DNA from: Paragorgia papillata
Lineage: Eukaryota > Cnidaria > Anthozoa > Scleralcyonacea > Coralliidae
NCBI GenBank assembly: GCA_035771165.1
Contig: JAWNZC010000366.1
Span: forward strand, 75,001-139,000
DNA: 64,000 nt
Direction: 5' to 3'
Below are positions 7,381 through 54,049 of the stretch, one piece after another (positions within the stretch are counted from its first letter, which is position 1; every line of letters begins with the position of its first letter). The translations under genes were made by a program, and so were the position numbers. The notes beneath the pieces were generated by a model. The model saw only the letters and a list, made by a program, of their open reading frames with translations, was not told where the DNA came from and did no database searches.

Positions 7381-7475
7381 CCAGATTGCTTAGATTACAA
7401 TCTGGCACGCTTCGATGCGTCGTTCTAAATTTTAGAACTTACGCTTTAAGCGTTTTAGAATCGGTGAAACGGGTG
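7381..7475 (-). repeat. Left TIR of the large KDZ-type transposon (95 bp)
   Basis: These 95 bases are identical at every position to 52031-52125. Read outward-in on the minus strand they start CACCCGTTTCACCGATTC. Directly outside lies 7476-7482, which reads GCGAGAA on the minus strand; the same heptamer flanks the right copy at 52126-52132. The TIR holds three small palindromes (CGCTTTAAGCG, TTCTAAATTTTAGAA, CCAGATTG..CAATCTGG). Because the element's ends should be inverted but lie here in the same orientation, one arm has been flipped since insertion. Confidence 0.9.
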
Positions 7476-8649
7476 TTCTCGCGGCCTGGCCGATGTGTGA
7501 TATCAAAGTCATATTCCTGGAGGGACAGGATCCACCGCGCTAGTCTGCCTTTAGGCTCTCGTAGCCCTTGTAGCCACTTTAAACATTGATGATCAGTCAC
7601 CACGTGAAATTTCTTCCCCAGCAGATATGGTCTCCAGTAGTGAATGGCCCACACAATTGCCAAACACTCTTTTTCGGTCGTGGAGTAGTTTTTTTCAGCT
7701 GATGTCAAGGTTCGGCTGGCGTAAGAAACCACGTGTTCGGAAGACCTGGGATGTTGAGACAGCACTGCTCCTATGTCACTAGCGTCGGTGTATACGGTGA
7801 ATGGAACCGTGAAATTTGGCAAGGAAAGGATGGGTGAGGTGGATAGTCGATTCTTCAGGTGAGTAAATGCTCCCTCTGCCGTCATCGTCCAAGTAAAGTC
7901 TCGACCACCTTTTGTTAGCCCGTGCAGGGGAGCTGCTATATCAGCGAAGTTACGGACATATCTGCGATAGTAAGATGCCATTCCAACAAATGCTCTGACG
8001 TCGGACAAAGAAGAAGGAGTGGGAAAATCCTGAACTGCTTGGACTTTCTCTGGATTTGGGCGGATACCCGTTGCGGAGACAATGTGGCCCAGGAACTGCA
8101 CTGACTCTTTTCCAAACTGACATTTTGATCTTTTAATCTTCAGCCCTGCTTCTTGAATTCGTTGAAGAACTTTCTCAAAGATGTTCTGATGTTCCTCCCA
8201 CGTATCGGCAAAAATAATGTCGTCAATAAATACCATACAACCGTTAATCCCGTGAAGCAGTCTTGTCATCATGCGCTGAAAAGTAGCCGGGGCGTTCGTC
8301 AGACCAAAGGGCATCACAGTAAACTCGTAATGGTTGGAGCCGACGCTGAATGCCGTCTTTGGGATATCTTCTTCTCTCAGAGGCACCTGCCAGTAGCCTG
8401 ATGCCAGATCTAATGTGCTGAAGTAGCGTGCACCACCAGGCTTATCAAGGATCTCATCTACTCGTGGCATCGGATAGCATCCTTTCTCGTGACCGCGTTT
8501 AAGCGTCGAAAGTCAACACAATATATATATATATAGTCACCGTCCTTTTTAGGGGCCAGTACAATCGGCGACGACCATGGGCTATTGCTTGGCCTAATGA
8601 GACCTCGGGTAAGCATTTCTTGCACTTGTTTTTCCACGACTTGATTCAA
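7476..8649 (-). pseudogene. pol: Ty3/gypsy reverse transcriptase and RNase H, cut off by the transposon
   Basis: The minus strand encodes the middle of a Ty3/gypsy polyprotein. The RT part opens with a VEKQVQEMLTRGLIRPS segment and the SPWSSPIVLAPKKDG motif, and its active site reads FIDDI. The RNase H part has FTVYTDASD, TEKECLAIVW and VVTDHQCLKWL. The frame is intact up to HRPGREN, where the 95-bp TIR interrupts it; the matching continuation (NSNADALSRF) is at 52126 on the other strand. An ATATAT microsatellite at about 8520-8535 lies in the 5' part of RT and breaks the reading there. No envelope gene is present. It is a dead copy. Confidence 0.9.
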
Positions 8650-8839
8650 ATGGACAGGAGTCCTGAAGGCCGTTGTTTTACTGGTCTCCTGTCTCCGGTC
8701 TCAATGGAATGTTCAGCGTCACGAGTTCTTCCTAACGGGTCATCCGGTCCATTTACAATTACATCCGAGTATTTCTCCAGCAGAACTGTTAATTTGTTGA
8801 TAGTTGGTGCTGCTGATTCAATTAGCAATGGCGTTTCTC

Positions 8840-9230
8840 CCGATTCCCATGATAATCGCCCGTGTCCCACATCTACTACCATTCCCATCGCTTTCAAAAA
8901 ATCAGCACCCAGAATGCACTGATTCTGCATGTTTACTACCACAAATGTGTGGACCACGTTCAGATCGCCTATTCGTAAGGAAATATCAGTCATACCAATC
9001 ACGTGAAGACTCTCTCCACCCACCCCTCGCGCTCGTAGCTTGCACTGTCTTATTGGTTTAAAGACAATATAGTAGCACTAGTATCACAAGCTAGTATCAC
9101 TAGCGACACGGTCGCTCCCGTATCGACAAGGCATCGTTGATGTTGACCTAACGTACCTTTGATGAAAACTGCAGTTGGCGAGACACTGTTAATCGATATG
9201 GCGCGGTCTTCGCGGGCTGACCCTTGGCCT
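8840..9230 (-). pseudogene. Ty3/gypsy aspartic protease region, frameshifted
   Basis: The minus strand carries the retroviral-type protease active site LVDTGATVSL near 9130-9100 and the later ILGADFL motif near 8900. The two are in different frames. Between them, near 9060-9110, a short duplicated stretch (AGTATCACTAG type) marks where the frame was lost. The region lies between the gag zinc knuckles and RT, as in normal Ty3/gypsy order. Confidence 0.75.
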
Positions 9231-9953
9231 ACTTGCGGGTCAGCCCTAGCTTGGTAGTTTCCCTGATTCAGTTGTTGTGGAGCCTGATAACGATTCTGAC
9301 AGTCTCGAGCGAAATGTCCCAGTTGACCACAGACGAAACAGTAGTTTTCATTTCGGCGTTGCCCACGGGCATTTCGCTGTTTGGTTTGGCGACAATCGCT
9401 TGCGAAATGACCTACTCGGCCACAGTTGTAACACGAACTGCGTCTCCCTCGACGGGGGTCCATCGTTCTCACTGCTGCCACTTCGCTCATGCTGTTCACT
9501 GACGCTGAAAGCTGGTTCACTTTCTCGGTGAGGACCTGAACGCTCTCTGTTAGTTGGCTGACCATGATGGATTCTCTGCTGGTTACTTGTTGGGGGTGAA
9601 CCGTCGTCTGATTTACATCAGGATTGGCATTCGTCGATGACAGCTCGGGTGTCAAATCAAGCTGTTGAGCAATTTTCACAGTCTCCTCGTATGTCAGATT
9701 AGGTCTCTGAAATAATTCTCTTCTCAGCGCCGCTGGAGATCTTTCAATAAATTGTTGTTTGAGAAGGGTATTTCTCTCGTCATTCGCGATCTTGGGCATT
9801 GCTCGGCTGAGTAAAGTTTCCAAGCCATAAGCGAAAACTTGGATATCTTCTCTGGGTGTTCGTGCGCGTCGACGAAACTCCATCATGGCAATATGTTTGC
9901 TTGTCGCATCACCACCGAATGCTTCATTGATCGCCTCTGTTAAGGTCTTGAAG

Positions 9954-9984
<31 letters not shown>

Positions 9985-10179
9985 GTCGTCTCCAAGGCGC
10001 TCGAACACGGCGAAAGCTTTCCCCGACCGCAGTGTCGGTAAACGCTTCAACATTTCCTCTGCTTTCCATCCATTCGCCGTTGAACACAATTCGAATATGC
10101 GCAACCAGAGCCCGAAATCACCATCCGAAAAAGTTTCTGGAACAGCCAAGAGGCTTGCTCTTGTTGATGTTGTTGTCAT
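9231..10179 (-). pseudogene. gag: Ty3/gypsy gag with two CCHC zinc knuckles, broken by a TTTC microsatellite
   Basis: Translation would begin at an ATG at 10179, 20 bases inside the 5' LTR. The capsid region includes FRRRARTPREDIQVFAYGL and a Y/F-rich C-terminus. Two zinc knuckles follow, CYNCGRVGHFASDC and CFVCGQLGHFARDC. A run of TTTC repeats at 9956-9984 has expanded inside the gene, adding lysine/glutamate codons and changing frame, so 10179-9985 and 9955-9231 are read in different frames. Gag would package element RNA; this copy cannot make an intact protein. Confidence 0.85.
9956..9984 (+). repeat. (TTTC)n microsatellite inside gag
   Basis: About seven TTTC units interrupt the gypsy gag frame. 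It is young relative to the element, because the flanking gag sequence on both sides is still readable. Confidence 0.85.
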
Positions 10180-10198
10180 CCTGGTCACGGCACCAAAA

Positions 10199-10377
10199 TG
10201 TAGTATAACGCACAACTACAAAGAACACTCAAATAAATCTCTTTAATAAAAATACACCCTAATACACAGCTCCCAGTCAAGTCACGAATGTGTTCACAGT
10301 CTGTGTTCACTGTCATTCAATATCCTCGTAATCTAATCCCTACGTCATCACCCACTTCACGCCCTCGCATATTCTAA
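10199..10377 (-). repeat. Ty3/gypsy 5' LTR
   Basis: This is the reverse-complement partner of the 3' LTR at 53756-53935. I count two substitutions and one missing base in the first two positions over about 180 bases. The 3' edge (..TACTACA) is followed by TGGTGCCGTGACCAGGAT, where a primer-binding site is expected. The outer edge abuts AGTCC (GGACT on the minus strand) at 10378-10382, the same 5-bp duplication found after the 3' LTR. Confidence 0.9.
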
Positions 10378-10382
10378 AGTCC
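10378..10382 (-). repeat. Target-site duplication of the gypsy element (GGACT)
   Basis: GGACT on the minus strand matches GGACT at 53936-53940. It shows that the two distant gypsy halves were one insertion. Confidence 0.85.
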
Positions 10383-13150: not shown

Positions 13151-13384
13151 TGATAAAAAATACCTGGTTACTCATTGACCCTCCATAAACATGGCTTTTA
13201 TTTCCAGCTGTAGAATCAACACCATTTCGTCGCAAAAACATCTGACATGTAGCCAGTAAGACATTTTCGGTACCTCCATCAGACCATGTCATGGCAGGAA
13301 CAACTACATGTACAGTAGTTATAATTAGAAAATAATAATTTATCAATTGCAACAACATAAGTAAACACCCACATAAAAGAAAAT

Positions 13385-18859: not shown

Positions 18860-18861
<2 letters not shown>

Positions 18862-18894: not shown

Positions 18895-18895
<1 letters not shown>

Positions 18896-20163: not shown

Positions 20164-20349
20164 TATTTCACCTTAAATAATTCCCTCAATAATCAACCGA
20201 TCGGCACACACAGTGCACCAAATTAAAGCTTATTATTCTATCTTTCTGAACCAAGATTAATGTCGTTCGTTTGAACAATTTGTTGAGGAAAAAAATAACG
20301 ATTTAATATAAAGTATCCACTTTTTAGGTAAACAAATAGATCAAATTCG

Positions 20350-21175
20350 CCGGGACGGCTTTGGGGGAAAAAATTGATGGCTTCCCTTACTTTTTAATGC
20401 CTTTGCTATACATCAAAATGAAGCTCATTCTATCGTCTCGCTGGCCCAAATACAACTAGAAGTGGCCCAGATCTGGTTCAAGATATATTAGCTTTTAAAG
20501 AGCGACGCCAAAACTGTCAATTGCACAGCGAGCCAAATTCACTTGTAGCCGACATGACTCTTTGGGGGGAAAATTTCGATGGCTTCTTTTTAATTTTAAC
20601 CGGTTTTCATATACATCAAAATGAAGCTCATTCTATCTTCTTGCTGGCCCAAGAAAAATTAGAAGTGGCCCAGATCTGGTTCAAGAGTTATTCGCTTTTA
20701 AAGCGAGGCGCGCGCCCAAACTATCAATTACAGCGCGCCGGAAATAGAAATCTTTATTAACTGTAGTTGCCGACTTAGTCCTTGGGGGGAAAATTTCGAT
20801 AGCTTCTGTTATTTTTAACCGGCTTTCCTATATATGAAAATGAAGGTCATTCTATCTTCTTGCTGGCCCAAGAAAAATTAGAAGTGGCCCAGATCTGGTT
20901 CAAGAGTTATTCGCTTTTACAGCGAGGCGCCAAAACTGTCAATTTCACAGCGGGCCCAATTCACTAGTAGGCGACACAGTCCTTGGGGGGGAAATTTCGA
21001 TGGCTTCTGTTATTTTTTAATGGCTTTGCTATATATCAAAATGAAGCTAATTCTATCATCTAGGTGGCCCAAGGAAAACTAGAAGTAGCCCAGATTTGTT
21101 TCAAAAGTTATTAGCTTTTAAAGTGAGGCGAAAAACTGTCAATTACAAAGCGCTCTAAAAATAGAACACTTAATT
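20350..21175 (+). repeat. Satellite array, about four ~200-220-bp units, plus orientation
   Basis: Each unit has a GGGGGAAAATTTCGATGGCTTC block, then ATCAAAATGAAGCTCATTC, CTGGCCCAAGAAAA, AGTGGCCCAGATCTGG and a GCTTTTAAAGxGxGGC block. Unit starts near 20361, 20561, 20779 and 20980 give periods of 200-220. The same satellite is inverted at 32225-33730, and a lone fragment lies at 31118-31165. ORFs across the array are by-products. Confidence 0.85.
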
Positions 21176-23345: not shown

Positions 23346-23349
23346 AATA

Positions 23350-32222: not shown

Positions 32223-32224
32223 AA

Positions 32225-33730
32225 ATTTCAGATCCAAGTATTTTTAACCGGATCTGACATTCTAATTTTTCTTGGGCCAGCAAGAAGATAGAATGAGCTT
32301 CAATTTGATATATATGAAAGCCGGTTAAAATTAAAAGAAGCCATCGAAATTTTCCCCCCAAGACCATCCCGACGATTTTAATAATAAATTGTTCTATTTT
32401 TATCGCGCTGTGTAATTAACAATTTGGGCGCCTCATTTAAAAGCGAATAACTCTTGAACCAGATCTGGGCCACTTCTAATTTTTCTTGGGCCAGCAAGAA
32501 GATAGAATGAGTTTCATTTTGATATATATGAAAGCTGGTTAAAATTAAAAGAAGCCATCGAAATTTTCCCCCAAAAGAGTCATGTCGGCTACAAGTGAAT
32601 TTGGCTCGCTGTGCAATTGACAGTTTTGGCGTCGCTCTTTAAAAGCTAATATATCTTGAACCAGATCTGGGCCACTTCTAGTTTTTCTTGGGCCAGCGAG
32701 ACGATAGAATGAGCTTCATTTTGATGTTTAGCAAAGGCATTAAAAAGTAAGGGAAGCCATCGAAATTTTTCCCCCAACACCATCCCGATTTTAATAATAA
32801 AGTGTTGTATTTTTATCGCGCTGTGTAATTGACAGTTTGGGCGCCTCGCTTTAAAAGCGAATAACTCTTGAACCAGATCTGGGCCACCTCTAATTTTTGT
32901 TGGGCCAGCAAGAAGATAGAATGAACTTCATTTTGATATATATGAAAGCCGGTTAAAATTAAAAGTAGCCATCGAAATTTCCCCCCAAAAGAGTCATGTC
33001 GGCTACAAGTGAATTTGGCTCGCTGTGCAATTGACAGTTTTGGCGTCGCTCTTTAAAAGCTAATATATCTTGAACCAGATCTGGGCCACTTCTAGTTTTT
33101 CTTGGGCCAGCGAGACGATAGAATGAGCTTCATTTTGATGTATAGCAAAGGCATTAAAAAGTAAGGGAAGCCATCGAAATTTTTCCCCCAACACCATCCC
33201 GATTTCAATAATAATGTGTTCTATTTTTATCGCGCTGTGTAATTCACAGTTTGGGCGCCTCGCTTTAAAAGCGAATAACTCTTGAACCAGATCTGGGCCA
33301 CTTCTAATTTTTGTTGGGCCAGCAAGAAGATAGAATGAACTTCATTTTGATATATATGAGAGGCGGTTAAAATTAAAAGAAGCCATCGAAATTTTCCCCC
33401 CAAGACCATCCCGACGATTCTAATAATAAAGTGTTCTATTTTTATCGCGCGCTGTAATTGACATTTTGGGCTCCTCGCTTTAAGAGCGAATAACTCTTGA
33501 ACCAAATCTGGGCCACTTTTAATTTTTCTTGGACCAGCAAGAAGATAGAATGAGCTTCATTTTGATATATATGAAAGCCGGTTAAAATTAAAAGAAGCCA
33601 TCGAAATTTTTCCCCCAAGACCATCCCGACGAATTTAATAATAAAGTGTTGTATTTTTATCGCGCGCTGCAATTGACATTTTGGGCTCCTCGCTTTAAAA
33701 GCGAATAACTCTTGAACCAAATCTGCCCAG
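32225..33730 (-). repeat. Satellite array, about seven ~210-bp units, minus orientation
   Basis: The units are reverse complements of those at 20350-21175, with block starts (TTTTCCCCC) near 32351, 32565, 32770, 32985, 33185, 33395 and 33610. Two subtypes can be told apart: one has CCATCCCGA..TTTTTATCGCGCTG, the other GTCATGTCGGCTACAAGTG. They alternate at 32.57-33.19 kb, giving a higher-order dimer of about 410 bp. Confidence 0.88.
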
Positions 33731-33930: not shown

Positions 33931-34905
33931 GATATCAAAATAACGGGCGATTGCCAAAAACCGTCTCGTATTTAAAAGGATTAAAAATAAATATAATCGC
34001 TGAAAGTTATTATCTAACTTTCTATGAACGTTGTTGGAACGTTGCAATGTTATACCTGTCATGTTAAGGGTTAATACAGCCGAATTTGCGCTCCAGAGAA
34101 AGCTAAATTTAAAACATTAATTTTCTCTAATGGTTTTTCATTTTACACGCAACATTTATTCAAACACAAAAAATGTTTGGTTGATCTATGGAGACAAACG
34201 AATACTAAGTTATTTGAGAGAATGGAAAAATATGTTTATTTTAAACAAAGATACGAGTAACCAGAATTTAACCGATATCATTCATGTACATATCAAGGTA
34301 ATAATCGAGTGGGAAATGTCTCATAAAAGATGGTTTTTATTCACAAAAACAAAATTTGCTTAGGTAATAAAAGCTAATCGCCGGATCCCCTTATAAATAA
34401 AACTATACCAGACTACTTTGCAGAATTTTCTTTAATATGTAAATATCAAATTCCTAAATATAACAGACACACAATTTTTGATTAACATCTCAAACGAGCT
34501 GTTGAAAAGCATACTGGTAGTTAATTCGGTAGGTGAATAAGGGGAACTGGCCAGATTATTAGCTATTTCAGACACCTTTTTAAAATCAATATCTTGTATG
34601 TTTGATACCATCCTTATAGTGTCTGAAATAGCTAATAATTTACATACAAAATAACTATGCCAAATAACTATATAGTCCCGAGTAAAATATGCATTTTCAA
34701 ATTAACATATAATTATATCATTGTTCATCGCTTTCAGGGCCTGGCTTTTCAGGTTTCTGAAAAAAAAATATCAAGGAAGTAGTGTCAAGAAATTCTTTGC
34801 AATATACTACAGTATATACACATCAATACAACACAGTACACACACACATATATACATACATACATACATACATACACATATACATACATACATACATACA
34901 TACAT

Positions 34906-34967
<62 letters not shown>

Positions 34968-35157: not shown

Positions 35158-35800
35158 CTGCTCATCTGCACAATCTGAATCGTCTTCAGAAAATTCGAGC
35201 AAAACTGATTCCTCTACATCAATCTCATCAACTGAGGTGAAGTCACAAACATCCATTGTATCCAACTCATATGATGCATGCTCAGATTCTATCTTACTAT
35301 TAGGTATTTTATTGATAATCTCTGCTGGCAAGTACTCAAACAGCATTGAGCCTAATAAAAATATCATATTATTTATCTCACTAAGTTCTTTGTTGGCAAT
35401 GACAGTAACTCCTCTTATTAGCTTAGGCTGGTCACCAGAATGTTCAGCTACATAGGTTTCCAGCTCTTCTTTTTTCCCGATGTAGTAGTTGAACAGCCGT
35501 TGAACTTCCAAAAGCAGATGCTCCTGCTCCTCTTTACATCTTTCCAGGAAGTTGTGAAGGTCGATTGCAGCTCTCTTAATGGTAAAGGGTATGTCATCAG
35601 TGAAAGGTTGGCAATTGAAATGGCAGTACCGTTGTGAACTTGGATCTTTAGCTTCATTAAATTGTAGCTCTGCCGGTAAGCCTTCAACCCAGTCTTCTAA
35701 TGAGCTTAATGAGGCATTGTACCGGGTTACAGCTGTTTTAATGGCATTTGTCCTGTGTGTAATCTGCTTTGACAACTTGATTGCTATTGCCTGTCCATCT
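35158..35800 (-). pseudogene. KDZ transposase, last exon
   Basis: The exon encodes the C-terminus: KLSKQITHRTNAIKTAV, then YNASLSSLEDWVEGLP and a long helical segment (LHNFLERCKEEQEHLL), ending in an acidic tail with a stop at 35158. Length and helix-rich make-up fit the KDZ C-terminal region. The exon is open throughout. Confidence 0.75.
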
Positions 35801-36164
35801 ATAAAATTATAAAAAATAAAACATCATTGCTTCATTGATGTATTATAATTAGTTGGATATCATAATTAATTTATTACCTGCATTACAGTATATTGATATA
35901 CTTGTACAATCTTTATTATTTTATTACCTGCATACTTGTTCTTTAAAGAGATCAGAAACATTCTTTCAACTGCTAAGGAATAGGTTGATTCCATAACTGC
36001 CTCCTGTCTTTTCATCTCCAGAGACAGAGCTGCAGCAGTAACTTTTTTTCCTCCAGCTTTCCATCTTCGCAACAGCTTTTGTCTTTTCTCAGTATTTTGT
36101 ATAACCTTCAAGACCCTGAAATTAAACCGAACCACTTAAATTTTTTGCTAACTGTAAAATTGTG

Positions 36165-36720
36165 CACTACAACGTGCACAGAACTCTGCGGCGAGAATAA
36201 TCTGCAAAACATCAAGATTTGACCATATAACTCCTGTGCTATATACCCTGCACTGGTTGCCTATTAAATTTCGCATTAGCTATAAAATACTTATCCTTAC
36301 TTTCAAGGCGATTCATGGCCTGGCGCCTGTATATATTATTAATTTAATAGGTATTAGGGAAAGATCTATATATAGTCTTCGATCTAACAGTGGATTACTC
36401 CTTAATCAACCTAGTGCTAAACTCAGAAAGACATTAGGGGATAGGTCATTTACATCTGCTGCCCCAACACTCTGGAATAAGCTACCGTTACATATTCGTA
36501 ACACGGACAATTTTACAAGTTTTAAGAATATTTTAAAGACTCACTTTTTTAAGATTGCGTTTAATGTTTAAGTAGATTAATTATTTTATATATGTAATTA
36601 GATTAGTTACATTATTTATTTTATATGTCAATATCAATTCCTGTAAAGCGCATTTGATCATATTCAAATGTTAATTTGCGCTATAAAAGTTTTAATTATT
36701 ATTATTATTATCATTATTAT
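36165..36720 (+). pseudogene. 3' end of a LINE (RT C-terminus) in a KDZ intron
   Basis: The plus strand encodes LHWLPIKFRISYKILILTFK, HGLAPVYIINL, GDRSFTSAAPTLWNKLPL and FKNILKTHFFKIAF, the conserved tail of CR1/L2/Rex-type reverse transcriptase proteins. A (ATT)n tract at about 36700-36720 ends it. Only the last ~130 codons remain, the usual 5' truncation. It separates KDZ exons 36801-36869 and 35930-36117. Confidence 0.82.
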
Positions 36721-37563
36721 TACGCTATGCTATACATGTATTATAATGTTATATTATAATTATTATCCACTAAATATAGACACTAAATATTTTCCCTTAC
36801 TTCTTGCTTTTGTTTACCACATCTATTAGCTGGCTATGATCCCCTCCAATATATGCAACCTGTGCCCTGAAGACCAAAAGGTTGTTTTAGCATGTTTGTG
36901 TCCAAGATGGAAGACATTTTTTTTATAAGGGGCTATGTTTGTAGGGGGCAAATATACTACTTTTGGTTATATCGATATTTTAATTTATTACCTTAGTTGA
37001 TACAGGTGAAGCAGGTTTTGCACATATTTTTGTTCCCATGTCAATGCTACTGCCTTTTTTACTAAAAACGAGAAAGCAATTTTAATAGTCATGATTTAAA
37101 ATTGTCTGTATAGAACTTATAAATTATCACTTTCAGTTCTTCGATGAAATAAACTTTTCCTCTTCATTCATCCAATTTTGCACCAATACCGGATCATAAG
37201 AAACTACACAATATATTAATAATGATAATATAGTGTATAAATACTGTACGCATAGTGTCCATGGTGGTTTAAACTACTGTTATACAAAATTATTCTTAAA
37301 GAATATGTAACCCACCAGGTAGCTTGGAAAATAATTCCTGAAGTTGCAAAAGTGTTTTACTTATTAGGTCAGGACATCTTTTGAGTTTTGATAACAATGT
37401 TGGCCCTATAAAACAATTAATTAAAGATAACGTTTTTGACATAACATAATAATTAATGTATGCTGGTGTTATGACTAAAGAATAACTATTGATACACTGT
37501 AAAATGTAAATACATGCACCATATTAAAGTATGTGTACAGATACATATATGTCACTGGATATT

Positions 37564-37755
37564 ACCAAACTGCTGAAACTGACGAGTAGAATAATGTAAC
37601 AAGGCATCAGTTAAGATATCAGTGCGGCGCCCAGCATTCATCTCTTTCGTCATTGAAGAAAAGCCCCTTAAAAATGACCAAAGCCTTTCAATTCCTTCAC
37701 CATTTGTCAACCCATAACCCTTCTGTCTTCTTGGACTAAACTGTATCTGTATTTT
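37564..37755 (-). pseudogene. KDZ transposase exon with the catalytic Glu block
   Basis: The exon carries PRRQKGYGLTNGEGIERLW, SFLRGFSSMTKEM and RRTDILTDALLHY, the most diagnostic KDZ stretch. It ends at QFQQFG with a GTAATA donor. Confidence 0.85.
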
Positions 37756-39059
37756 ATTTAAAATAGAAAAAACATTCTTAATTAGTTGTGACTTGTAATC
37801 ATAATTTTTATAGGGCATATGCATTCAAATATTCCATTTAATAATATTAGTCACTTTTAACATTAGTATAACTGGTGCAGGATTGCGAATTAGGGTAGTG
37901 AATAAAGATATTTGATGCTATTTCAAATTAATGATTGGTCAAGTAGAGTTTTCTCCACTATCTACATGGCTGGAATATTACTTATTAATTAAATACCATT
38001 CTGTAATCAGGCACAACTCAGCAATTAACATTAATATGAGGTACTTCATGTCAGCTGAATTTTTAGGCTCTAGACCTACTGTAGGCCTCCATATTGACAA
38101 AGCTCGCAAAAGCAAAATGCAGCTTGATTGGTTGACATTTTCATTAAAAATACGAAGAGTTCAGTTACCTAAAGTTAATGTAAGGAGTTCATACAAGTAT
38201 ATATTGGAGAAAGCTAGAGTTATTGATAAAGAATAAGAAGGAGCAAAGATGTGAGTCATTTAATACTTTATCTGTCATTATTAATCGTGTTTATACATGT
38301 GTTTACTATTTAGTGTGTTACATGTACATATTTTTCACCAAGTGGTACTATAATAGCTTATAAAATATACAAATACAAGTACCAAACTACAAGTATCAAT
38401 GCTCAAATTGCACACTTCTATACCAATAGGATTGCAGCATTTGATCCTGATTACAGAAGGGTATAATATGATTAATGCTCAAATCGCACAAGTGATAAAA
38501 AAATCGACCAACCGCAAAGTGTGAGGTACATGTGAGACACAAGTATGATTTTAGCATTAATAGCAAGACTGTTCCTAGTTACACGTATTATGGATATAAG
38601 TCCTAAACAGCATACCTGGCATGATGATTTGTGGCCATAACAGTGGAAAATAGGAATAGCGAAACCAACACTATTCAGTATATCTTGCCTTAAATTTCTC
38701 TAAAAAATAAAAACAATTCAACCTCAATATTATCTTAATAATAGTAATCTGGTGACCATGTTAGCCAGAGGAAAATATTAGTATGTGTGAGCCTGAGCTA
38801 ACTTTCGTTTATATAAAGATCTCCTTAAAAAAATATAAAAGTTGTTGTTTTACTTTTTGTTTACCACTACATACCTTTAAATGTGATGTCAGGGTGCAAG
38901 CAATGTCATACATGACATTAATGCCAGTATTTGTGTCAGTATTGCTGAGTAGACGCTGCAGCTCATACACGTTAAGTTAAGTCAACCTTAAGTTATGCCA
39001 GTAACCTTAAGTTATGCCACTACTACTATGAATGTAAGCAATTCTGTAAGAGGTTTAAA

Positions 39060-42401
<3,342 letters not shown>

Positions 42402-42811
42402 GAGTATGCAATCCTATGACAAAAATATTGTTAATACACAACTAGTTGCTGATAATAAAATACATGTGGTATTAGTATAAAAACAAAGAATATCATAATT
42501 AATATTAATATTAAAGTATTAAAGTAAAGTAACCTTTCCCCATGCTTAATATTTGTAAATCCCTTGGGAATGTCATGTCGGCAAACACGCCCAAAAACAC
42601 CTTTCTCATCATAAAGCTTGTTTTTCCCTTTTGACCTGATCATGTTGTTCACTTCTCCAGCTTTGAACTCATGGCAGTCCTAAAATTATGCAAAAGCTAC
42701 AATTACTAACTGAGTTTGTCAGAAAGCTAGTGGTTTGGAAAGTAGATGTAGACAAGTACAGTAAGTTCAGGAGTTACTGTAGGCTACAGTACTAAATTGC
42801 CTTTACTCACA

Positions 42812-42988
42812 GTTTCAGCTTGTTTTGCACTTGATGTATAACTGTCAACAAATTCATCAACATCGTTTTGATCAGCAAACTTTGTCATAGAGTGCCTTGG
42901 GAGACATGAACTTTTGCCGGAAGACTTTTTTCTCACTAGACCAAAGCAACCATCCATTGATTCTATTATTGTCCCAGTTTCACCTAGC
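42812..42988 (-). pseudogene. KDZ transposase exon with the first catalytic Asp
   Basis: ETGTIIESMDGCFGLVRKKS and the following CLPRHSMTKFADQNDVDEF and VDSYTSS match the KDZ core entry block. It is bounded by an acceptor CAG and a GTGAGT donor. The upstream exon (43168-43088) has KNPCPLCPK just before its GTAAAT donor. Confidence 0.82.
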
Positions 42989-43389
42989 TGCAAATTATGA
43001 AGTGTACAGTGAATGAAAAGCTTAAAAACATACAATGATATGCAGTAATTGTAAAGAAATGAGTGGCATAATCCCAGTACATTTACCTTTGGACAAAGTG
43101 GACATGGGTTTTTTGCCCGGACTTGTTCGACGAAAGGGAAGCCATTTCTCAACAAATACTGGTGATACCTTAAAGTGGATACATGCTGGCCACTTATTTT
43201 ATAAATACTAATTATATTTTTTGACTGTTACTACCCTGTTACTAAGGACATGGTTAAGAAGCTTGGAAAAAAATACATGAAATTTACCGAAATTCATCAA
43301 ATGAATCACTGTTCAGTGTTGAATAAATGTTCTTTGCCTGCAGTAAGAAAGATGGTGATTCAGTACATGTATGTATGTATGTATGTATA

Positions 43390-43398
43390 TATATATAT

Positions 43399-43440
<42 letters not shown>
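43390..43440 (+). repeat. (TA)n microsatellite
   Basis: Two TA-rich runs separated by CATG. A longer TA tract with TTCTCATA interruptions lies at about 43840-43925. Both are in a KDZ intron. Confidence 0.9.
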
Positions 43441-43443
<3 letters not shown>

Positions 43444-43558
43444 AAACTAGCAAATATTGGTTATAGCACAATCAAAACATTTCCATATCATGCACATACA
43501 GTAGTGTACTGTATGACAGTATCAGTTGAAATAAAGTTTTGTGGAAAATACATCATAC

Positions 43559-43782
43559 CCATGTTGGTAAAATTAAAGATTTAGTTAGGATTCCAAGTGC
43601 ATCGCAGAACTTTCTCAGTGAAACATGACATTCCAGAAGAAGGGTCTCAGCTAGCTTCATCAATTTAAAATGGAATGCAATGGTAGGGCGTGCAGTACTG
43701 CCTGGCCATAATTTCAGTTTCACTAATGTGACTGCATCTTCCTCGCAATCACAAAACAGGATTTGCTTTTGATGTTGACATC
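43559..43782 (-). pseudogene. KDZ transposase exon, CxC / LWPG block
   Basis: It carries CQHQKQILFCDCEEDAV, then LVKLKLWPGSTARPTIAFHF and LLECHVSLRKFCDAL, the N-terminal zinc-and-strand region shared by KDZ proteins. It joins exon 2 (..ICIDQYG) in phase across the Academ insertion. Confidence 0.85.
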
Positions 43783-43840
43783 CTACAAATGTTGTTGAGA
43801 AAAGCAATGTAATTAGTTACAAACACTGTAGTTCGATACA

Positions 43841-43896
<56 letters not shown>

Positions 43897-44390
43897 TCAT
43901 ATATATATATATATATTCTCATATATATTCTGTCTGACGAAGAGCCTTTGCTCAAAATGTTAGGAATCTATGTTCAATAATTTTGGTAGTACTCAATTTT
44001 GAGCCCAATGTGACAAAACATTTATGTCAAGAATTCAATATTGGGTGAGACTTGAGGTCGAGCCTAATATTCCAAGTCGAGACTTAAATATTTTGTAATA
44101 TTGGGCAAAGATGAATGCAATACATGTAGGTGATTTATTATATCGAACAAGATATCTTAACACAAAGATGATCTTGTCCAAAATGTTGCTGTCCTACATC
44201 ATAATATATTAGTAGGCCTGTTAAGATGCCAATTTTATGCAAATCCTTCAAATCATGATCACAAGCGGAGACTTGGCACAATGATAGATTAATATGTCAG
44301 GAATATGGAATGGAAGGGTTGCCCAAAATTTGAGCAGGGAAAAGTGCTCATTTCGGACGTCAAAATGTCCGACATGAGCGATTTCTGATA

Positions 44391-45226
44391 TATGACAAAT
44401 ACATCACCTAATTGACGATTTTAAAGCAAAATTCAGCCTTATACGAATCCACAATAACTGAGTTATTCAGACTATCTGTTATACGTTCTGAATAGCAAAA
44501 AAAATTCACGAGAATACATCAAAATAACATGTAGACAACATATATGTGCAGCAGTGCGACCTTTGATACTTCGAACAACGTTAAAATTTCACTCTGATAT
44601 GTGAAATCCATCATCCAATTCCACCAAAATAAATTACTTAACTCACCTTGTGATTGTTAAAATACAATTTCTCTATCTTTTCCGCGTTTATATGGTATTT
44701 CTAGTGCTGTGTAAATGTTTTAAAAACCGACAGCCATGATGAAAGATGCAAGCGCCATTTTGAATATTAAGTGTTTGAAGTTGCGTTTACTCCCATGAGT
44801 CCCTGATTGCTCCCTAAATCCCTCTATGGCCAAAATATCGACTTTTTGAAATTGTTTCAGATTTTTTACAGTTCTTTATATATATAGTCTTATAAATTGA
44901 AACTCATATTCTCGTATGATGTAAAGTTGCAAGGTAATGTATATATTATAATGTCTAAGTTTTCAGTTTGTTTGTAGTTAAGCTGTCTTTTGCACCTTTG
45001 CTAAACTTTTTAAAACTTTTTTGTAATTTAATTACTAACTTGTCCAAATATATTCAATAGTTCAAAATTTTTCTTTTATTAATTTTTATGGTTTTACTGC
45101 TCTTTTTTTGTAATTCGTTTTAATATTTTTTTGCATAAATTTAGGACTTGGGTGGCACTTATTTACTCATTTTAATTTATTGTTTTGAAACATTTTCCTT
45201 TTTTATTGCAATCGATAAATAGATAA
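44391..45226. other. 5' region of the Academ-like element
   Basis: AT-rich, no ORF of note. It is probably the promoter and leader of the transposase gene that starts at 45227. Confidence 0.5.
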
Positions 45227-48200
45227 ATGGATTGGAGTATATGCGCTCTGTGTCAACGTGATGGGCAGAATCTCGTTGTACCATCTGCAAATTTAAATCC
45301 AAACGTATGTGGATATTCCGCATTAGCAAGGAACATAGATGCCTTTACTAACGAGGGTCTACCACTACCAAACAAGATCACCGTTGCTTTAACAGATCTG
45401 AAAGGTGATACAAATGTTGCTGATAACCTGAAATCAAATAAAGCCCAGTGGCATAAGGGATGCCAGGCAGAATTGGCACCTTCAAAGCTTAAGCGTGCTT
45501 TAGAATCAGCTGCAAATAATAAGCGTAAAACTGCAACACTCCCTGTCGATGCACCATCTAAAAGAAACGCGTTCCAGCTTAGATGCCAAAACACAATTGC
45601 AATCTTGTCTGTGCTTATTTTGCAATGAACCAGGGGTATTAACAGCAGAATATATAAAGTTGAAACATCCTCCTGCTTGGCATAAACGAATGTGTAAAGT
45701 TCATACTGATAACTGTGATGACTTTGTTAGAAAGGCTGCCGCTGAGATGGGAGATGCGTTGCTACTAGCCAAGCTATCTGAGGGTAACTTATTTGCAAGA
45801 GATGCTTGCTACCACTATCAATGTATGGCAGAATTCAGAAACAGATATCGGGCATTTCTGACATCCGAAAATCCCGACACTACTAGGATGAAAGACCTTG
45901 AAAGCTCGGTACTAGCTGAAACAATGATGTATATTGAAGAAAGTCTTGCAGCGAGTACATACACTGATGTAGCGACATCAATAAAATTGTCTGACATAAG
46001 AAAGTTTTATGATAGCAGTTTAGCTAGGATGATTGGCAAGGAAAGTAATGTGAATGTTACACGGCTTAAAGATAAGATCCTCAACTTAGACAGCGACCTG
46101 CAAGCTGTTTCTGATAAGAAAGAAATCTATATCTCGTACAAAGATGCTTTGGCTGCCGCTTTGAAATATGCGAGTCGATCTGAAGCTAATGATGTAATGG
46201 GTCTTTGTCGGCTTGGCAGAAAAATCAAAGCTGAGCTAGCTGATAGGAAACAAACATTTAATGGTCACTTCGAAGAAAATTGCCAAGAACAGTCAGTGTC
46301 TCCCACATTTTTGTCGTTAATGTATATGCTGACTGGGTTTGAAAGCACAGATGATGTAGAATCGTCCAAGTTGTCTCCTGCCTTAGTCTTGGCTCAGCTG
46401 CTCGCCTTTAACTCAGCTAAAAACAGGACATCAACTGGAGCCTTTCGTAATAATGCAGATCATGAAACACCAGTAGCCATATATATAGCATTTCTTATCC
46501 ATTCAAAGACTAGAAGCGAGGACCTGGTGAATAGACTTCACTCTCTTGGGCTATGTATCTCATATGACCGCCTTTCAACTTTATCAACATATCTAGGCAA
46601 CAGTGTTATCGATCAGTGTGAAAAAGATGGACTGGTATGTCCTAGCTCATTGAGATGCAATCTTTTCACTACACAGGCTGTTGACAATATCGACCATAAC
46701 CCAAGCTCCAGAACAGCGAAAGACTCGTGGCATGGCACTGCCATATCTACCTCTCAACATCTCTTAGACAATGATGATGGATCTATTCGGCAGCAGAAGT
46801 TACAGAAGGACAAACTACAATCAAAATTATTAAAGCAGCTTCCTGCAGAATACACTACAATTTCGCCATATGTCCTGAAGAAGAAAGACATAGTCACGCC
46901 CACGAAAGCTGGAGCAAGTCAGGAAGTGAGTATTGCATTATCCTATGCTTCATACAAACGTGGTGGATTCAGTGTCGGCCGCGGTGACGGCTGTATCATT
47001 AAAATCAATCTTAGGCTGTACACAACAACCTTTGCTTCAAAACGTTGAATTTATTCTTCTTGTTACATATATCATATTACATATTTTTATTTAACCACTT
47101 TCATTAAATCTATATTACTTGCAATTTAGTGGACACTCCAAAGTGATACTGTAGACTCGACTTCAGCCGATGAACCATGGATGGACAGTGTTCTTCAATC
47201 AATATTGAATAATAATGAATACCTGATTACTGATGAACGAAAACTGACATGGTAAGCTTTAGCGTTAATTAAAATGTATCCTCTCATCAATAGTTCTACA
47301 ACAATAAAATTAATTATTACGAGTTTGGTTTTACCAACACCTTGTTATACTTGCAGGTCTGCATACCACTCGTCTATGATGGAAAACACACTTACTGCCA
47401 AAACCATCACTGCCCTACTCCCATTGTTTCGTGAACACGCCAACACCCCAGCAATGATTCATCATGCCATGTTGCTCATTAAGAAACAAACAGCGTTTTT
47501 GAACCCTGGTAAGTAGCCTAATGATCTTGTTAGTGTGGTTGATTTGGGAACAAGTTCAGTTCGGAGATCCTCATATCAACACACGTTAAAGGATGGGGAA
47601 ATGACAAATTAAACATGTAACATTTTATTAAAGAATATTGCATTTTCTTATTCACCAGGTCAGACACCCGTGATGACAGTTGATCAGCCGTTGTATGCTC
47701 TGGGAAAGCAGATTCAGTGGACCAAGCCGGGAGACATTGACGATAACCATTTCCTTGTCATGATGGGTGATCTGCACATAGAGATGACATTCATGAAATG
47801 CTTAGGTAAGAGATTGCAAAAGAACATCGTCATTAATTATTCGTTGAATCACGACAGCTTCGTTACGAATTAGTAGACACAAATAAACTAACAATTTGGA
47901 TTTAAACTTGTTTGTGCCTACTAATTATTGACGAAGTGTCTATGCTCGTCGAAATCAGTCTTCTCATTACAGATTGTGGCGATTCAACCCAAGATTGCTG
48001 TTTTTAAACACCGCGGCTGACGCTGGACCACCGTAGCTTGCAGATGTATTTTAACATAGTTGCGATCGTTTTCAGGTGATTGGCTCAATGGAGGTGGTTG
48101 GGTTCATTTGCTGGTGTTATCGAAAGTAGCCACGCCAGGGAAGGCCAATGCAATGCTAACTGCTTCCTCCAACATCACATTTTGTCGTTATCTCCATCAA

Positions 48201-50607
48201 GTTACAGTATGTGTCCTATATCAACACAAGAAGGATGCATATAAGTTGTATTGCAACTCGACAGCGACCCCGGTACCTGAGGCTGAATGGTCCAGCGCAA
48301 ACCTAAAACATCCTATGTTCAAATACTGGTCGACCACACTAAAGATGGAGCTGATCTTGCTGCAGTTTGTCAAAGCCATAAGATCGGCAGATTTCAACAT
48401 GTATGTGAATGCCTTGCAGATGATAGCAGCATGGATGTTCAGTCTCGACCACTATAACTACGCTCGATGGTTGCCAGTGCATATATATAGTATGGTCACA
48501 CTCAAAGATATTCACCCAGATGTATACGAACAGTTTACATATGGCTTCTTCACAGCGCAGAAGTCGAACCGGAAGTTCTCCCACATAGGATTAGACCATA
48601 ACCACGAACAAATCAACGCAAAAATCAAAGGTGTAGGGGGAGCCATCGGCCTTACGGAAAACGACGCGTCTCTTGCAAAGTGGCTCATCGCAGGGCCCGA
48701 GGTTTCGCGCGTGGTAGAGGAATTTGAGGAGAAGAACAGGCTATCAGAGTCAAGCAAAGTTCGAGAACACCACGATTCCAACGCATCTGCGCAGAGACAT
48801 TTTACATCGGACGTAAAAAGAATGTACGACGCGTTAGCGGAGTTGGGAAATCCATTTATAGATGACAGTACGGACCTTTTCGCATTAGATACAAAGCTAG
48901 TTCCAGGAACAGAGGCTGTTAAGCACCTATATGCTGTTGAAACGATTGGCCAAGAACAGTTCAAATCCTACATGGACACTCGCATACTGAAAAACGACAA
49001 CCCTATTTCAGATACCATCGTTAAAAACAACATGCAAATCTTCAAATGTGTTAAGGCAAGAAAAGCAACAAAGAAAGACGCACAGCTGAAAACGGCGAGA
49101 AGTGATGCTGCCTTGTACTCGAAGTTATTTATCGCTTGTCAAAATAGAGATGGAGACCTCGAGCAATTTTTCTCCCACGAAAACCAAGGAGCACCCCCTA
49201 GCCTTTCCGAGAATGGCAATTTAAGACCAGCAAAGAACAAGTCGGGTATTTATTTTTTTCTCAATGATTTAATACGATCGAACATAGCCCTGTGATATGA
49301 TATCCAAAATTATATATCTAATAACCATTATTCATTTATTTGCAGGTATTATAGAGCCAATTTTGGTCGTAGAACATACGGAACGCAATGAATCACCAGC
49401 GGTAGATGCTAAAGTGCTTGACGGACCGGCTATAGTAAATATGCTGAGGCCAAATGATTGCAAGACATTCGCGGATTACATATCGAGTGTCATCCAGCCT
49501 TACATAGAGCTTCATCTGAGGTCAGCTGCACGACTAGATTTGGTATTTGATAGGTACTTTAAAGATAGTTTAAAGTCTGGTACACGATCAAACCGTGGTT
49601 CTGGTGTGAGAAGGCTCGTGAAACCAAATGGGAGTATGCCAAACAATTGGTCAACGTTCCTTCGGTGCGACGAAAACAAGACAGAACTGTTCCCGCTCAT
49701 TGTCAAATCACTCACCGAGAACATTGACTGTGCACATGGAGTGTTCGTAGGGTCTCTAGAAGACGGGGCAGTTTCAAACCAAGATATAGATCTCGAGCCA
49801 TTGATGCCATGCAACATCGAAGAGGCAGACGAGCGTATGTTTGTACATGTCAGAAATGCTGCCGAAGAATGTCCCCGTATTCTGGTCAAGACCGTGGATA
49901 GTGATGTTGTTGTGATTGCTCTTTCCGCTTTCCACAGAATACCCGGCCTCCAGGAGTTGTGGCTCGAGTTTGGGGTGGGGAAGCATTTGAAGTTCATACC
50001 TATTCACGAAATTGCCAATTCACTCGGACCCCAAACCTCAACCGCTTACCTCTTCTTACACTCGTTTAGTGGCTGCGATACCACCTCTTCACTTCACGGG
50101 AAGGGTAAGAAATCGTTTAGTGAAACTTGGAAGAAGATGGCCAGTGCAACACCGGTATTCGAGAAAATGGCAACATCTCCGAGAGAGATAAGTCAAGCCG
50201 ACAGAGACATTATAGAACAGTTTGTTGTTGTCCTGTATTGCAAAGCATTTGATGGTATCAAGGTGAACGAGGCGAGGCGATACCTATTTGCAAGTAGAGG
50301 AAAGGCCATTGAGAATATCCCTCCAACAGCTGCGGCGTTGAACGAACATGTCAAGCGATCAGTTTTACAAGCGCAGAAGTGGTACAAATGTCTCGAAGCC
50401 CACAGAATTGAACTGGATCCAGTGAATTGGGGATGGATGAAGGAGGATGATGAATTCATACCGGTTTGGAGTATTCTGCCGGACGTTTCGAGTGTGACCA
50501 AAGCGCTCATTTCTTGTGGATGCACCAATTGTGTTGCAGCGAGATGCAAATGCAGAAAGAGTGGGCTAAAGTGTACCGACCTATGCTGTTGTCGGGCTAA
50601 ATGTTAA
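45227..50607 (+). pseudogene. Academ-like transposase gene, six exons
   Basis: Exons on the plus strand: 45227-46925 (with a frame change near 45580), about 47130-47252, 47357-47509, 47660-47804, 48076-49240 and 49346-50607, about 1,400 residues, all with GT-AG edges. The N-terminus has two Cys/His clusters (ICALC..WHKGC; CLFCNEPG..WHKRMCKVH). The middle has DNIDHNPSSRTAKDSWHG and YARWLPVHIYSM, FSHIGLDHNHEQINAKIKG, GAIGLTENDASLAKWLIAGP. The C-terminal third has IEEADERMFVHVRNA, VKTVDSDVVVIAL and HSFSGCDTTSSLHGKG, a motif order like XPG/FEN nucleases, then a CXC-type Cys-rich end (CGCTNCVAARCKCRKSG). The transposase would cut the TIRs of the 6.9-kb element. The exon-1 frame change suggests this copy is inactive. 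Academ assignment is from memory of the family. Confidence 0.78.
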
Positions 50608-51468
50608 ATAGGGACTAGCTTTGCAGTTTGCATAGAAGATCACTACATGTTAGTTATGTTTGGTTTATTGCCTATAACTACATTCACTGGTAGGCAAAAT
50701 GCTCATCGAGGGTCATATGGTTCCAAAATTGATTAAAAAAATCTAGGAACGTTTTTGTTTTTAATGTTCTGGAGCGAAGAGCCTGGGTACGAGTTTGAAA
50801 CTAGGTCCATTTATCGGCCTCTGTTAGTTCAATTTATATGTTTTGAGATTGGTTGAAGTACTAACTATATATATGTAATGTGTTAAAGTGATTACAGTGG
50901 TAATTAAGTTGATGACGTCATTTAACTGACGTCATCGGTCGGCCATCTTGGATTCCGCCATCTTAGATTTTTTACGTCCGAAATGAGCACTTTTCCCTGC
51001 TCAAATTTTGGGCAACCCTTCCATTCCATATTCTTGACATCATAATCTATCATTGTGCCAAGTTTCTGCTTGTGATCACGATTTGAAGGATTGTTTTGGC
51101 TAACATGCCTACTATATGGACTGCCACATGATGCTAATAGCGACAATTGATTGGTGGATTATATGTGAGGGTATAATAAACATATCGATTAAATAGTAAT
51201 CTTACCATATTGATCAATGCAGATGATATTTCTGTATTGAGCAGATGCATGGGCAGTTTTGTTGATGACTTCTGGCAATTATCATATGATTTGGAAAGTA
51301 TGGCAGTAAACAACCGTCCTGTATGGCCAAGTAAAAAGACATTTGTTTAGTTATTTATAACACGTGCACCCAGCAACACAAGTTCAACTATATAAGTTAT
51401 AACTCGTACACAGTCCACACAGATACAGTTTGTTGATGATAAATTGACATTTAACGGCAATTCCTCAC

Positions 51469-51963
51469 CTTAAACCTTTCTAATACATGGAAATAATTCC
51501 TTTCTTCATGAGCTTTCTTTGCGCAACCAATGCAATGATACTGATCATGTCCACAGTCGACACAGCGAACTTCGGCAACAACACCGCATTGACGACACTT
51601 TTCTTCGTTTGAGAATGCCTCTTCTTCAATGCGGCTATTTAAAAGTGATTCCCGCATTTTGTTCCAGCTTTTATACTCTTTTTCTCTTCTTATCTGATAG
51701 CCAGATACAATAGCAGGTTCATCTTGCGCGAGATCAGAATGTTCTATTTCTTGTCCTTTGCCATGTGCTCCATCTTTCGAAGTCGAACTGGATGATGATA
51801 CGACTCCGTTTAATTCAATTCGAGCAGTCCGTTTTGTCTGGAAAGATGCCTTTAAGTTTATATTCTTTGTAGTTTTCTTTCCAGATGTTGAAACTGAATG
51901 AACACGAACCTTACATGATTTAAAACGTTTTGCTGGACGTGAAACGGCTGAACGGACAGCCAT
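51469..51963 (-). pseudogene. KDZ transposase exon 1, zinc-binding N-terminus
   Basis: It starts at an ATG (MAVRSAVSRPAKRFKSCKV) 68 bp inside the right TIR. A basic, low-complexity N-terminus leads into EYKSWNKMRESLLNS and CRQCGVVAEVRCVDCGHDQ, HCIGCAKKAHEERNYFH, the CxC/B-box-like zinc module of KDZ proteins. It ends at a GTGAGG donor (51468). Confidence 0.85.
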
Positions 51964-52030
51964 CTTGAAAATAATAGCTCAGAATAAATTGCGCTCTGGA
52001 GTTTGGATAGTCTCCCCTGGGTACGAGTTT

Positions 52031-52125
52031 CCAGATTGCTTAGATTACAATCTGGCACGCTTCGATGCGTCGTTCTAAATTTTAGAACTTACGCTTTAAG
52101 CGTTTTAGAATCGGTGAAACGGGTG
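52031..52125 (+). repeat. Right TIR of the large KDZ-type transposon (95 bp)
   Basis: Identical over all 95 bases to 7381-7475. It ends ..GGTGAAACGGGTG at 52125 and is followed by GCGAGAA (52126-52132), the 7-bp duplication also found at the left TIR. It borders the KDZ transposase exon 1 on one side and gypsy pol on the other. Confidence 0.92.
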
Positions 52126-53744
52126 GCGAGAACAGCAACGCCGACGCTCTTTCGCGATTTCCTCTACCAAGTACAGCCCTTCACTGTCCAAATCCACATG
52201 ACGAGGCTGTCGAAATAGGCGTTGGAGCCACCGTTGTGCAGTCAACTTGGTCTACCGAGGACATTCGTCAGTTTCATTCCAGTCATCTCACTGGTCCTCC
52301 AGGCACGATTAACAACCACTGAACGACAAGAACCACCAAGTGATTGGACTGAGAATGGCGAACTTCGTCGTTATCGACAATTGTGGAAACAGCTAGAGGT
52401 TGTGGAGGGAGTTCTACATCGCCGTGGTGCAACCAGTGGTCGGAAGGATGGTCTTGTTCTGGTTGTCCCTCGGAAAATGCGTGCTGATTTGCTGAGATTG
52501 TCTCATAACGACCCGAGCTCGTGGCACAGAGGCATCAATCATTGTCTTGAGCGATTGCACCCCTGGTACTACTGGCCAGGAATGGCAAGTGAAGTGCAAC
52601 TATGGGTTGCAGAGTGCGCAGTGTGCAATCAGCGAAAACCCACAGCATCCAATTATCGTGCCCCGATGGAAAACATAAACGTTTCCCATGGAGATGTGGG
52701 CAATGGACATCGTTGGTCCACTTCCAATTACCGCACGAGGACACCAGTATATCTTGGTGACGAGTGATCTCTTCACCAAGTGGGTTGAAGCAGCTCCAAT
52801 GGGGGACCAGAAAGCAGAGACGGTGGCGCGTGCATTTGTGGACAACGTGGTGGCTCGACATGGGGTTGCAGAGAAGCTGCTTACTGACCAAGGGAGGAAT
52901 TTTGAGTTGGAACTTATGAAACAAGTCTTCGAATTGCTGGGCATTCACAAGCTACGGACTTCGGCATACCATCCCCAGACCGACGGCCAAGTTGAAAGAT
53001 TTAATCGGACTCTCAAAGCAATAATTTCATCATACGTGAACAGAGATCACAACGACTGGGACTTACATCTACCCTTGGCCTTATTTGCCTATCGCAGCAG
53101 TGTTCATTCCTCGACGCATGTGTCTCCTTTTAAAGCGGTTCATGGGCGAGAAGCTACCTCACCACTTGTGTTATTAGGCAGCCATGAGAAGCGCGAAACC
53201 ATGCTAATCTCCAATTATTGTGACGAACTGGAGCATACTCTGAAAGATGTACATGAAGCGATGACTGAGAACATTAGGAAAGCGCAGACCCAGCAGAAAG
53301 AGAAGTACGACGAGCGTAACAACGTCACGCAATAGTTTGAATGCAGGTGACACCGTGTGGTTACACAATACTGCTGTACCGAAAGGCCATTGCAGAAAGT
53401 TCCACAAACCCTGGACTGGTCCGTTTGTCGTGGTCCGTCATCAAGGAAGCGTGAACTACGTGATCAGACCACAATCAGGGAAAGAGAGGATACTGTGCGT
53501 ACATCGCAATCGACTTAAACTTTTCCAGCATCACAACCGCGTGGAGGCGACGGATGAGCAATTTCCGCAAGTGACAAGTAATGTGACGCAGGAAAAACGA
53601 TTCGACGGGTCTGTGGTAGTCTACCAAGAGGCGGAGACTACGAGTGCGGCTCCTCTCCGACGGTCTTCGCGTCATCGTCGCCCCCCTGATCGGTACGAAG
53701 ATTTTAACTTGGACGAACTAGAGATCGAGGACGCCCTCACTTAA
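52126..53744 (+). pseudogene. pol: Ty3/gypsy integrase half of pol
   Basis: The plus strand picks up pol where the left half stopped (ENSNADALSRFPLPS). The integrase has its zinc region (LSHNDPSSWHRGINH.. AECAVCNQRKP) and catalytic core: MDIVGPLPI (first Asp), LLTDQGRNFELEL (second Asp), HPQTDGQVERFNRTLKA (Glu). The C-terminal part has AGDTVWLHN and KFHKPWTGPFVV. At least three frame changes (near 52320, 52690 and 53335) break it. Integrase inserts element DNA into the genome; this copy cannot do so. A purine tract (AAGGGGAGGG) precedes the 3' LTR. Confidence 0.9.
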
Positions 53745-53755
53745 GGGGAGGGTAA

Positions 53756-53935
53756 TGTAGAATATGCGAGGGCGTGAAGTGGGTGATGACGTAGGGATTA
53801 GATTACGAGGATATTGAATGACAGTGAACACACACTGTGAACACATTCGTGACTTGACTGGGAGCTGTGTATTAGGGTGTATTTTTATTAAAGAGATTTA
53901 TTCGAGTGTTCTTTGTAGTTGTGCGTTATACTACA
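53756..53935 (+). repeat. Ty3/gypsy 3' LTR
   Basis: 180 bases from TGTAGAATATGCGAGGGCG to GTTATACTACA, followed by the TSD GGACT (53936-53940). It differs from the 5' LTR (10199-10377, inverted) at about three positions, so the element is young. Confidence 0.92.
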
Positions 53936-54049
53936 GGACTAATTCTCGATTCAAGTTGGCCGCTAGCCAATTTGTCATGCGACAGACCAGAAAATTAACA
54001 ATTTTAAAGAAAATGTTGTTCCTAAAAGTACGAAAATGTGTATTTATAC

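Follow-up and report, generated by a model that had tools for sequence, protein, structure and literature searches.

KDZ (Kyakuja-Dileera-Zisupton) elements, inversions marked by transposons, and gypsy elements are all already known. According to the excerpted text of one account (PMC12730594), Zisupton and a Dileera family generate target duplications of 8 bp, and Kyakuja is described there with a 7-bp duplication, CA..TG ends and no terminal repeats. Inversions are usually detected by comparing genomes. In the case reported here, from Paragorgia papillata, the internal markers of one genome suffice. They are located in a stretch of 64 kb, C366:75001-139000, referred to as the window; C-numbers designate contigs of the same genome assembly, which comprises 618 Mb in 473 contigs, C366 being 435 kb long. 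The closest protein matches to the window are from octocorals. The window contains a Ty3/gypsy retrotransposon in two halves, each of which adjoins one end of a KDZ transposon. Insertion of the gypsy element, insertion of the KDZ element, and then one inversion through the transposon very probably explain this split. The repeat that the gypsy element entered, the gypsy element and the transposon each have uncut copies elsewhere, and these reveal, without an outgroup, in which order the events took place and how the pieces were originally oriented.

Two gypsy halves on opposite strands

The left half of the gypsy element is on the minus strand and the right half on the plus strand. The 5' half (7476..10198, minus strand), which carries gag and pol up to the end of RNase H, is followed by the 5' long terminal repeat (LTR; 10199..10378, minus strand). 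The 3' half (52126..53755, plus strand) contains the remaining part of pol with the integrase and is followed by the 3' LTR (53756..53935, plus strand). The halves were delimited by Pfam matches and genome copies, the LTRs by LTR comparison; the LTRs are 180 bp each and differ at three positions. In Pfam searches, the left half matched zinc knuckles, reverse transcriptase and RNase H, and the right one integrase domains. With LTRs, reverse transcriptase and RNase H upstream of the integrase, and a short target duplication, the element is of the Ty3/gypsy type.

Both halves stop at one identical base of pol, and the heptamer GCGAGAA is present at both junctions (7476..7482, minus strand, and 52126..52132, plus strand), each time beside an identical terminal inverted repeat of 95 bp. 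A first-pass annotation of the window had noted this arrangement, including the opposite strands of the halves and the common direction of the terminal repeats, and direct sequence comparison agrees with it in all these respects. If the flanks are joined after removal of one heptamer, the resulting sequence, ...ITHRPGRENSNADALSRFPLPS..., reads through the end of RNase H.

Uncut copies were sought with a 300-bp query from each half. Twelve rows were obtained with the 5' half and eight with the 3' half, the window being counted in both. At all seven other loci matched by both queries, the halves adjoin on one strand. They overlap by 7 bp at four of these loci, by the same length at two more if two unmatched query bases are counted, and at the seventh the overlap is unclean. 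Such an overlap is what a 7-bp target duplication at the window junctions predicts. C95, C145, and C270 were matched by the 5' half only.

The outer flanks are equally informative. From base 10379 onward the sequence belongs to an abundant repeat with at least 42 matches listed. The target duplication of the gypsy element, GGAC, is located at 10379..10382 (minus strand), followed by about 65-80 bp of this repeat, and at 53936..53939 (plus strand), beyond which the repeat continues with its other part. GGACT had been proposed for both outer edges; a duplication is indeed present, but it is best read as GGAC, since on the 5' side the T already belongs to the LTR, as its first base, and on the 3' side it is part of the native target. 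Five copies of the repeat were read, four of them from the top of the list of 42 matches, which came from 1318 first-look candidates. In each of the five, the left flank, once reversed, runs directly into the right flank through one GGAC or GGAT. About 20 bp that the other copies have 13 bases further on are missing from the window. For the first copy, the joined flanks scored 328, the separate flanks 94 and 234, and the construct with the left flank unreversed 243; 200 shuffled sequences reached 65 at most.

The two arms of the KDZ transposon

The right arm contains a KDZ transposase gene interrupted by nested insertions (35161..51942, minus strand), which is co-linear with residues 3-930 of P0001, a Dendronephthya protein of 931 amino acids. 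The KDZ transposase domain PF18758 was detected in one exon (27.1 bits, cut-off 26.6), and the CxC1/CxC2 cysteine cluster was matched with 44.5 and 35.3 bits. The joined exons have 80 homologues, for most of which PF18758 is listed. The designation as KDZ made in the first-pass annotation is borne out by these domain matches, and the window element is assigned at the level of the superfamily only.

The terminal inverted repeats are located at 7381..7475 (minus strand), next to a gene with a GTF2I domain, and at 52031..52125 (plus strand), next to the KDZ gene. They are identical and have the same orientation, and similarity ceases immediately on their inner side. Two matches to a 26-bp end were obtained in none of 100 shuffled sequences, and chance is therefore ruled out for the paired ends. 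As had been suggested as a check, the genome was searched for the 95-bp repeat in normal inverted pairs, and such pairs were found at C65/C437/C458, which represent one locus or its duplicates, C437 being a noisy copy of C65, and at C242. A derivative of 537 bp (C65:45739-46275, also in C458) consists of window positions 51794-52125 joined to 7270-7475, with 97.6-99.4% identity and with the ends inverted. Since it joins both, the ends found in the window belong to one element. At C242:256710-257441, the same ends are flanked by a perfect 7-bp duplication, TGATTTG.

In its wider context (C65:45414-46275, C458), the 537-bp derivative has perfect ends, one of which adjoins a KDZ 3' flank (compare window 34801-35131), and the heptamers flanking it are unequal, ATTTCAT and TTTTTTT. 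Copies with a single end are present in C232 (KDZ end) and at two duplicated places in C351 (GTF2I end). In the stretches read of C206 and C158, only the end sequence matches the window, and tblastn searches with five proteins, KDZ and GTF2I included, found no match there. Exact 18-mer matches in viral contigs do not extend beyond the 18-mer. On the whole of C366, no third end was detected among the 40 of 54 candidates that were scored.

The left arm contains a second transposon gene (2786..7332, minus strand), co-linear with residues 16-508 of the Dendronephthya protein P0081. It has homeodomain-like, HMG-like, and GTF2I (PF02946) parts; the GTF2I label is a Pfam match, the other two are our own reading. 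The contigs of P0001 and P0081 are both listed with a length of 233185, by which sign four out of five homologues of the second gene apparently reside on one contig with a KDZ homologue, and in P0061 of Branchiostoma, KDZ and GTF2I-type parts form one protein. A search of the genome gave 63 rows for GTF2I and 121 for KDZ, which manual merging reduced to 34 and 92 loci, respectively. A KDZ locus is found within 30 kb of 28 of the 34 GTF2I loci, and in all 28 pairs the two genes are convergent. The six remaining loci are those in the window, C58, C466, C87:3047575, C302, and C94. In the window, the GTF2I-type and KDZ genes are found on the same strand, 31.5 kb apart.

A protein kinase-like exon (1140..1904, plus strand; PF07714), 98% identical to its copy in C58, probably represents a third gene carried by the transposon. 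Three pieces of C58:120907-126874 align with window 1133-7188 at 95-98% identity, which indicates that the left arm probably extends to 1133 and includes the kinase; its probable minimum extent is thus 1133..7475 (minus strand), the part from 7188 to 7475 leading to the terminal repeat. Because a kinase relative with 39-43% identity is located between GTF2I and KDZ matches in C18, the kinase is probably cargo of the transposon, as judged from sequence comparison. It is not general in the family: around 1.54 Mb of C232, no kinase match was present in the stretch read.

The two arms do not duplicate each other. GTF2I-type proteins found no match in 10.4-35 kb and KDZ proteins none to the left of 7.4 kb, and in the readable part of C366:55001-149000 outside the window neither was matched. 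These results support the view that the left arm, with the GTF2I-type gene and probably the kinase, and the right arm, with the KDZ gene, represent one transposon split into complementary halves.

The KDZ gene has acquired insertions of its own. A DNA transposon in one of its introns (44211..51113, plus strand; ends read by eye) is absent from the copy of the gene in C232; it shows a weak match to DUF6589 and has terminal repeats of about 124 bp that are 94% identical. A non-LTR retrotransposon with broken open frames is located at 38976..42062 (plus strand), and between it and a KDZ exon a perfect (CTAT)45 tract is present at 42223-42401. The relative in C232 (644472-647789), 97-99% similar, lacks several exons and ends at a (TG)n tract. 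This copy sits at ATTTATC in an array of a 1.24-kb satellite (C232:643185-664000), the register of which differs beyond the copy.

History of the locus, breakpoints, and alternative explanations

If the assembly is correct, the following steps can be regarded as shown. One gypsy element would have inserted at GGAC into a copy of the abundant repeat. A KDZ transposon would then have entered its pol gene, producing the 7-bp duplication. The normal order of such a transposon would be end, GTF2I-type gene, kinase and KDZ gene, both facing the GTF2I-type gene, and end; the place of the kinase applies to this subfamily and is deduced from C58 and C18. Finally, a segment consisting of the 5' part of the repeat, the 5' half of the gypsy element and the GTF2I arm of the transposon would have been reversed, one of the cuts having separated the GTF2I-type gene, probably together with the kinase, from the KDZ gene within the transposon. 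We infer that this last step was one ordinary inversion with two breaks. The order repeat, gypsy element, KDZ element, reversal is forced. By our reasoning, only a reversal from the left of the GTF2I-type gene to somewhere in 10.38-35.1 kb restores all adjacencies. The first-pass annotation had arrived at the same sequence of gypsy, transposon and inversion, and it is the only history with a single inversion found to fit; gypsy copies, repeat flanks and gene pairs agree with it.

The extent of the reversed segment also corresponds well to the earlier estimate. Its right junction is bracketed by 10.38 and 35.1 kb, and its left one falls outside the GTF2I-type gene, to the left of 2.8 kb, and probably no further right than about 1.13 kb. 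C58 and the window part company at about 1133, inside an intron. On the right, a (TG)n/(TATG)n microsatellite (34816..34966) is a candidate for the breakpoint. Up to this tract, the KDZ 3' flanks are alike in the window, C232, C65, and C458, the latter two being one locus or duplicates, and beyond it they are unlike, so that the tract may be the break itself or may be fragile in all copies. Comparisons with C58, C232, C65, and C458 did not fix the breakpoints. Positions 700-1150 of the window, searched against the genome, gave mainly a dispersed repeat of 119 bp and did not fix the breakpoint either, and between 1-2900 and 10.4-35.2 kb the longest match among the best 25 was 18 bp.

Two causes of the reversal can be considered. 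The first would be an exchange between arrays of a satellite of about 215 bp in opposite orientation on either side of the segment. One array, at least C366 45003-59061 to the left of the window, and another at 20340-21176 of the window share their orientation, and that at 32243..33725 (plus strand) has the opposite one. The first and the last of these three arrays are placed and oriented such that an exchange would yield this inversion, which, among as many as three arrays, is weak evidence for this cause. Under the second, the DNA would have broken at the (TG)n/(TATG)n tract next to the KDZ gene and been repaired by end-joining.

Several points weigh against the history given above. The evidence comes from one assembly and from one genome alone, in which a misjoin is possible. 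Neither breakpoint is fixed at the base level, and the divergence at about 1133 and at the microsatellite could be due to local turnover instead of a break. C58 is devoid of both ends and might therefore have arisen by duplication of the rearranged locus; if so, the kinase would not have to be part of the transposon. No complete copy of the young KDZ subfamily showing the uncut spacer was found. In addition, the window contains a USP-Ulp1 gene whose exons are likewise distributed over both strands, and one inversion is insufficient to account for everything.

In the case of a misjoin, the chromosome itself would be unaltered, and the KDZ arm would have been attached wrongly during assembly, at the microsatellite or at a satellite. 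The loss of similarity of all compared KDZ 3' flanks in one (TG)n tract, the satellite arrays on either side of the segment, a noisy contig end elsewhere in the assembly and the second gene on two strands would fit such an error. However, the window contains not a single N, the (TG)n tract is just about 150 bp long and the size of the contigs suggests long reads, and three independent markers point to one reversed segment. A misjoin is thus unlikely, though it deserves consideration.

Alternative transposition was offered in the first-pass annotation as a way to the inversion. In this reversed-ends reaction, ends of two KDZ copies would have entered the gypsy element jointly and inverted the DNA between them, with no break inside a transposon. 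The shared duplications suggested it: a target duplication is found at both endpoints and the target halves are inverted, as in the maize inversions of this type in the excerpts available (PMC9910405, PMC8225341), and copies with a single end exist in C232 (KDZ end) and at the two duplicated places of C351 (GTF2I end). Yet two copies should each add the other gene and another end. The arms are complementary instead, each half having its own gene or genes and one end, and partners with further ends were not seen, the end survey having found only these two among the 40 of 54 candidates scored on C366, the readable part of the contig beside the window included. The complementary arms led us to drop this candidate, which is very improbable, and a cut through one transposon is preferred over joined ends of different copies, since no further end or gene was found in the part of C366 covered. 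A pair of half-elements would escape these objections. The unmatched heptamers of the 537-bp copy in C65/C458 and the single-ended copies in C232 and C351 are the reason to consider, as a doubtful extension, that the young KDZ subfamily rearranges DNA by bringing together ends that belong to different copies, in which case the split in the window could be one product, with half-elements as partners. The history by one inversion is independent of this idea.

Ectopic recombination of the Galileo type, involving two complete and oppositely oriented KDZ copies, could be envisaged for a multicopy transposon family, but it predicts, from the part of PMC2775673 available, two full chimeric copies with exchanged duplications; these were not found, each half having one end and its own genes, and this origin is hardly conceivable. 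Two separate gypsy insertions, each struck by a KDZ element, are just as implausible although both families are multicopy, because the same target base and repeat, matching duplications, and the same pol base are involved and the halves are complementary; one gypsy element, not two unrelated complete copies, is present, as originally presumed.

Other features of the window and comparison with known systems

Within the inverted segment, the USP-Ulp1 protease gene (relatives P0111 and P0113) has its N-terminal exons at 31593-32271 (minus strand) and its C-terminal exons at 23206-24135 (plus strand), 8 kb apart; it is apparently divided at an intron, and to explain the split, either an additional small inversion or an error of assembly has to be assumed. 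An open reading frame of 759 codons at 25436-27715 (plus strand) has no Pfam match; the closest relative, P0086, is 80% identical, and a composite query including this frame matched 28 proteins. It possibly encodes a transposon protein of an undescribed family. Near-perfect duplications of 326 bp (99.4%) and 439 bp (99.8%), adjacent to the right flank of the gypsy element and at the end of the window, were found at 54186-54844 and at 61913-62351/63563-64000.

Compared to known systems, the gypsy element is a regular Ty3/gypsy LTR retrotransposon, with zinc knuckles in gag, reverse transcriptase and RNase H before the integrase and two LTRs; only its splitting and inversion are unusual. As in the Galileo inversions of Drosophila buzzatii, a DNA transposon marks the inversion and target duplications reveal its history. 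According to the excerpts of PMC2775673, the Galileo breakpoints both have chimeric copies and exchanged duplications, whereas in the window one copy was cut and the duplication is common to both halves. The inversions by reversed ends of maize Ac/fAc resemble the window in having transposon ends and a target duplication at the far ends of the inverted segment, but start from two elements in direct orientation, as far as covered by the available text of PMC9910405 and PMC8225341; the arms in the window look like halves of one. A published case of a KDZ element cut by an inversion was not found in the passages and listings consulted from open-licence articles in PubMed Central, three of which name both Zisupton and chromosomal inversion. 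The same literature yielded no paper combining Kyakuja and GTF2I and no case in which a KDZ element carries a GTF2I-type gene convergent with its KDZ gene.

Among KDZ elements, the transposon in the window shares the KDZ transposase with CxC1/CxC2, the many exons, the terminal inverted repeats and the target duplication. It differs from Zisupton and Dileera, as characterized in the accessible part of the account cited at the outset, in that the duplications of the window and C242 are 7 bp and not 8 bp long. The 7-bp duplication and the termini fit Kyakuja as portrayed in the same excerpt, but the 95-bp terminal repeats do not. The family is further distinguished from other KDZ elements by carrying a separate gene of the GTF2I type, which faces the KDZ gene, an architecture exposed by this analysis at 28 loci in the genome, and in the window probably a kinase as well.

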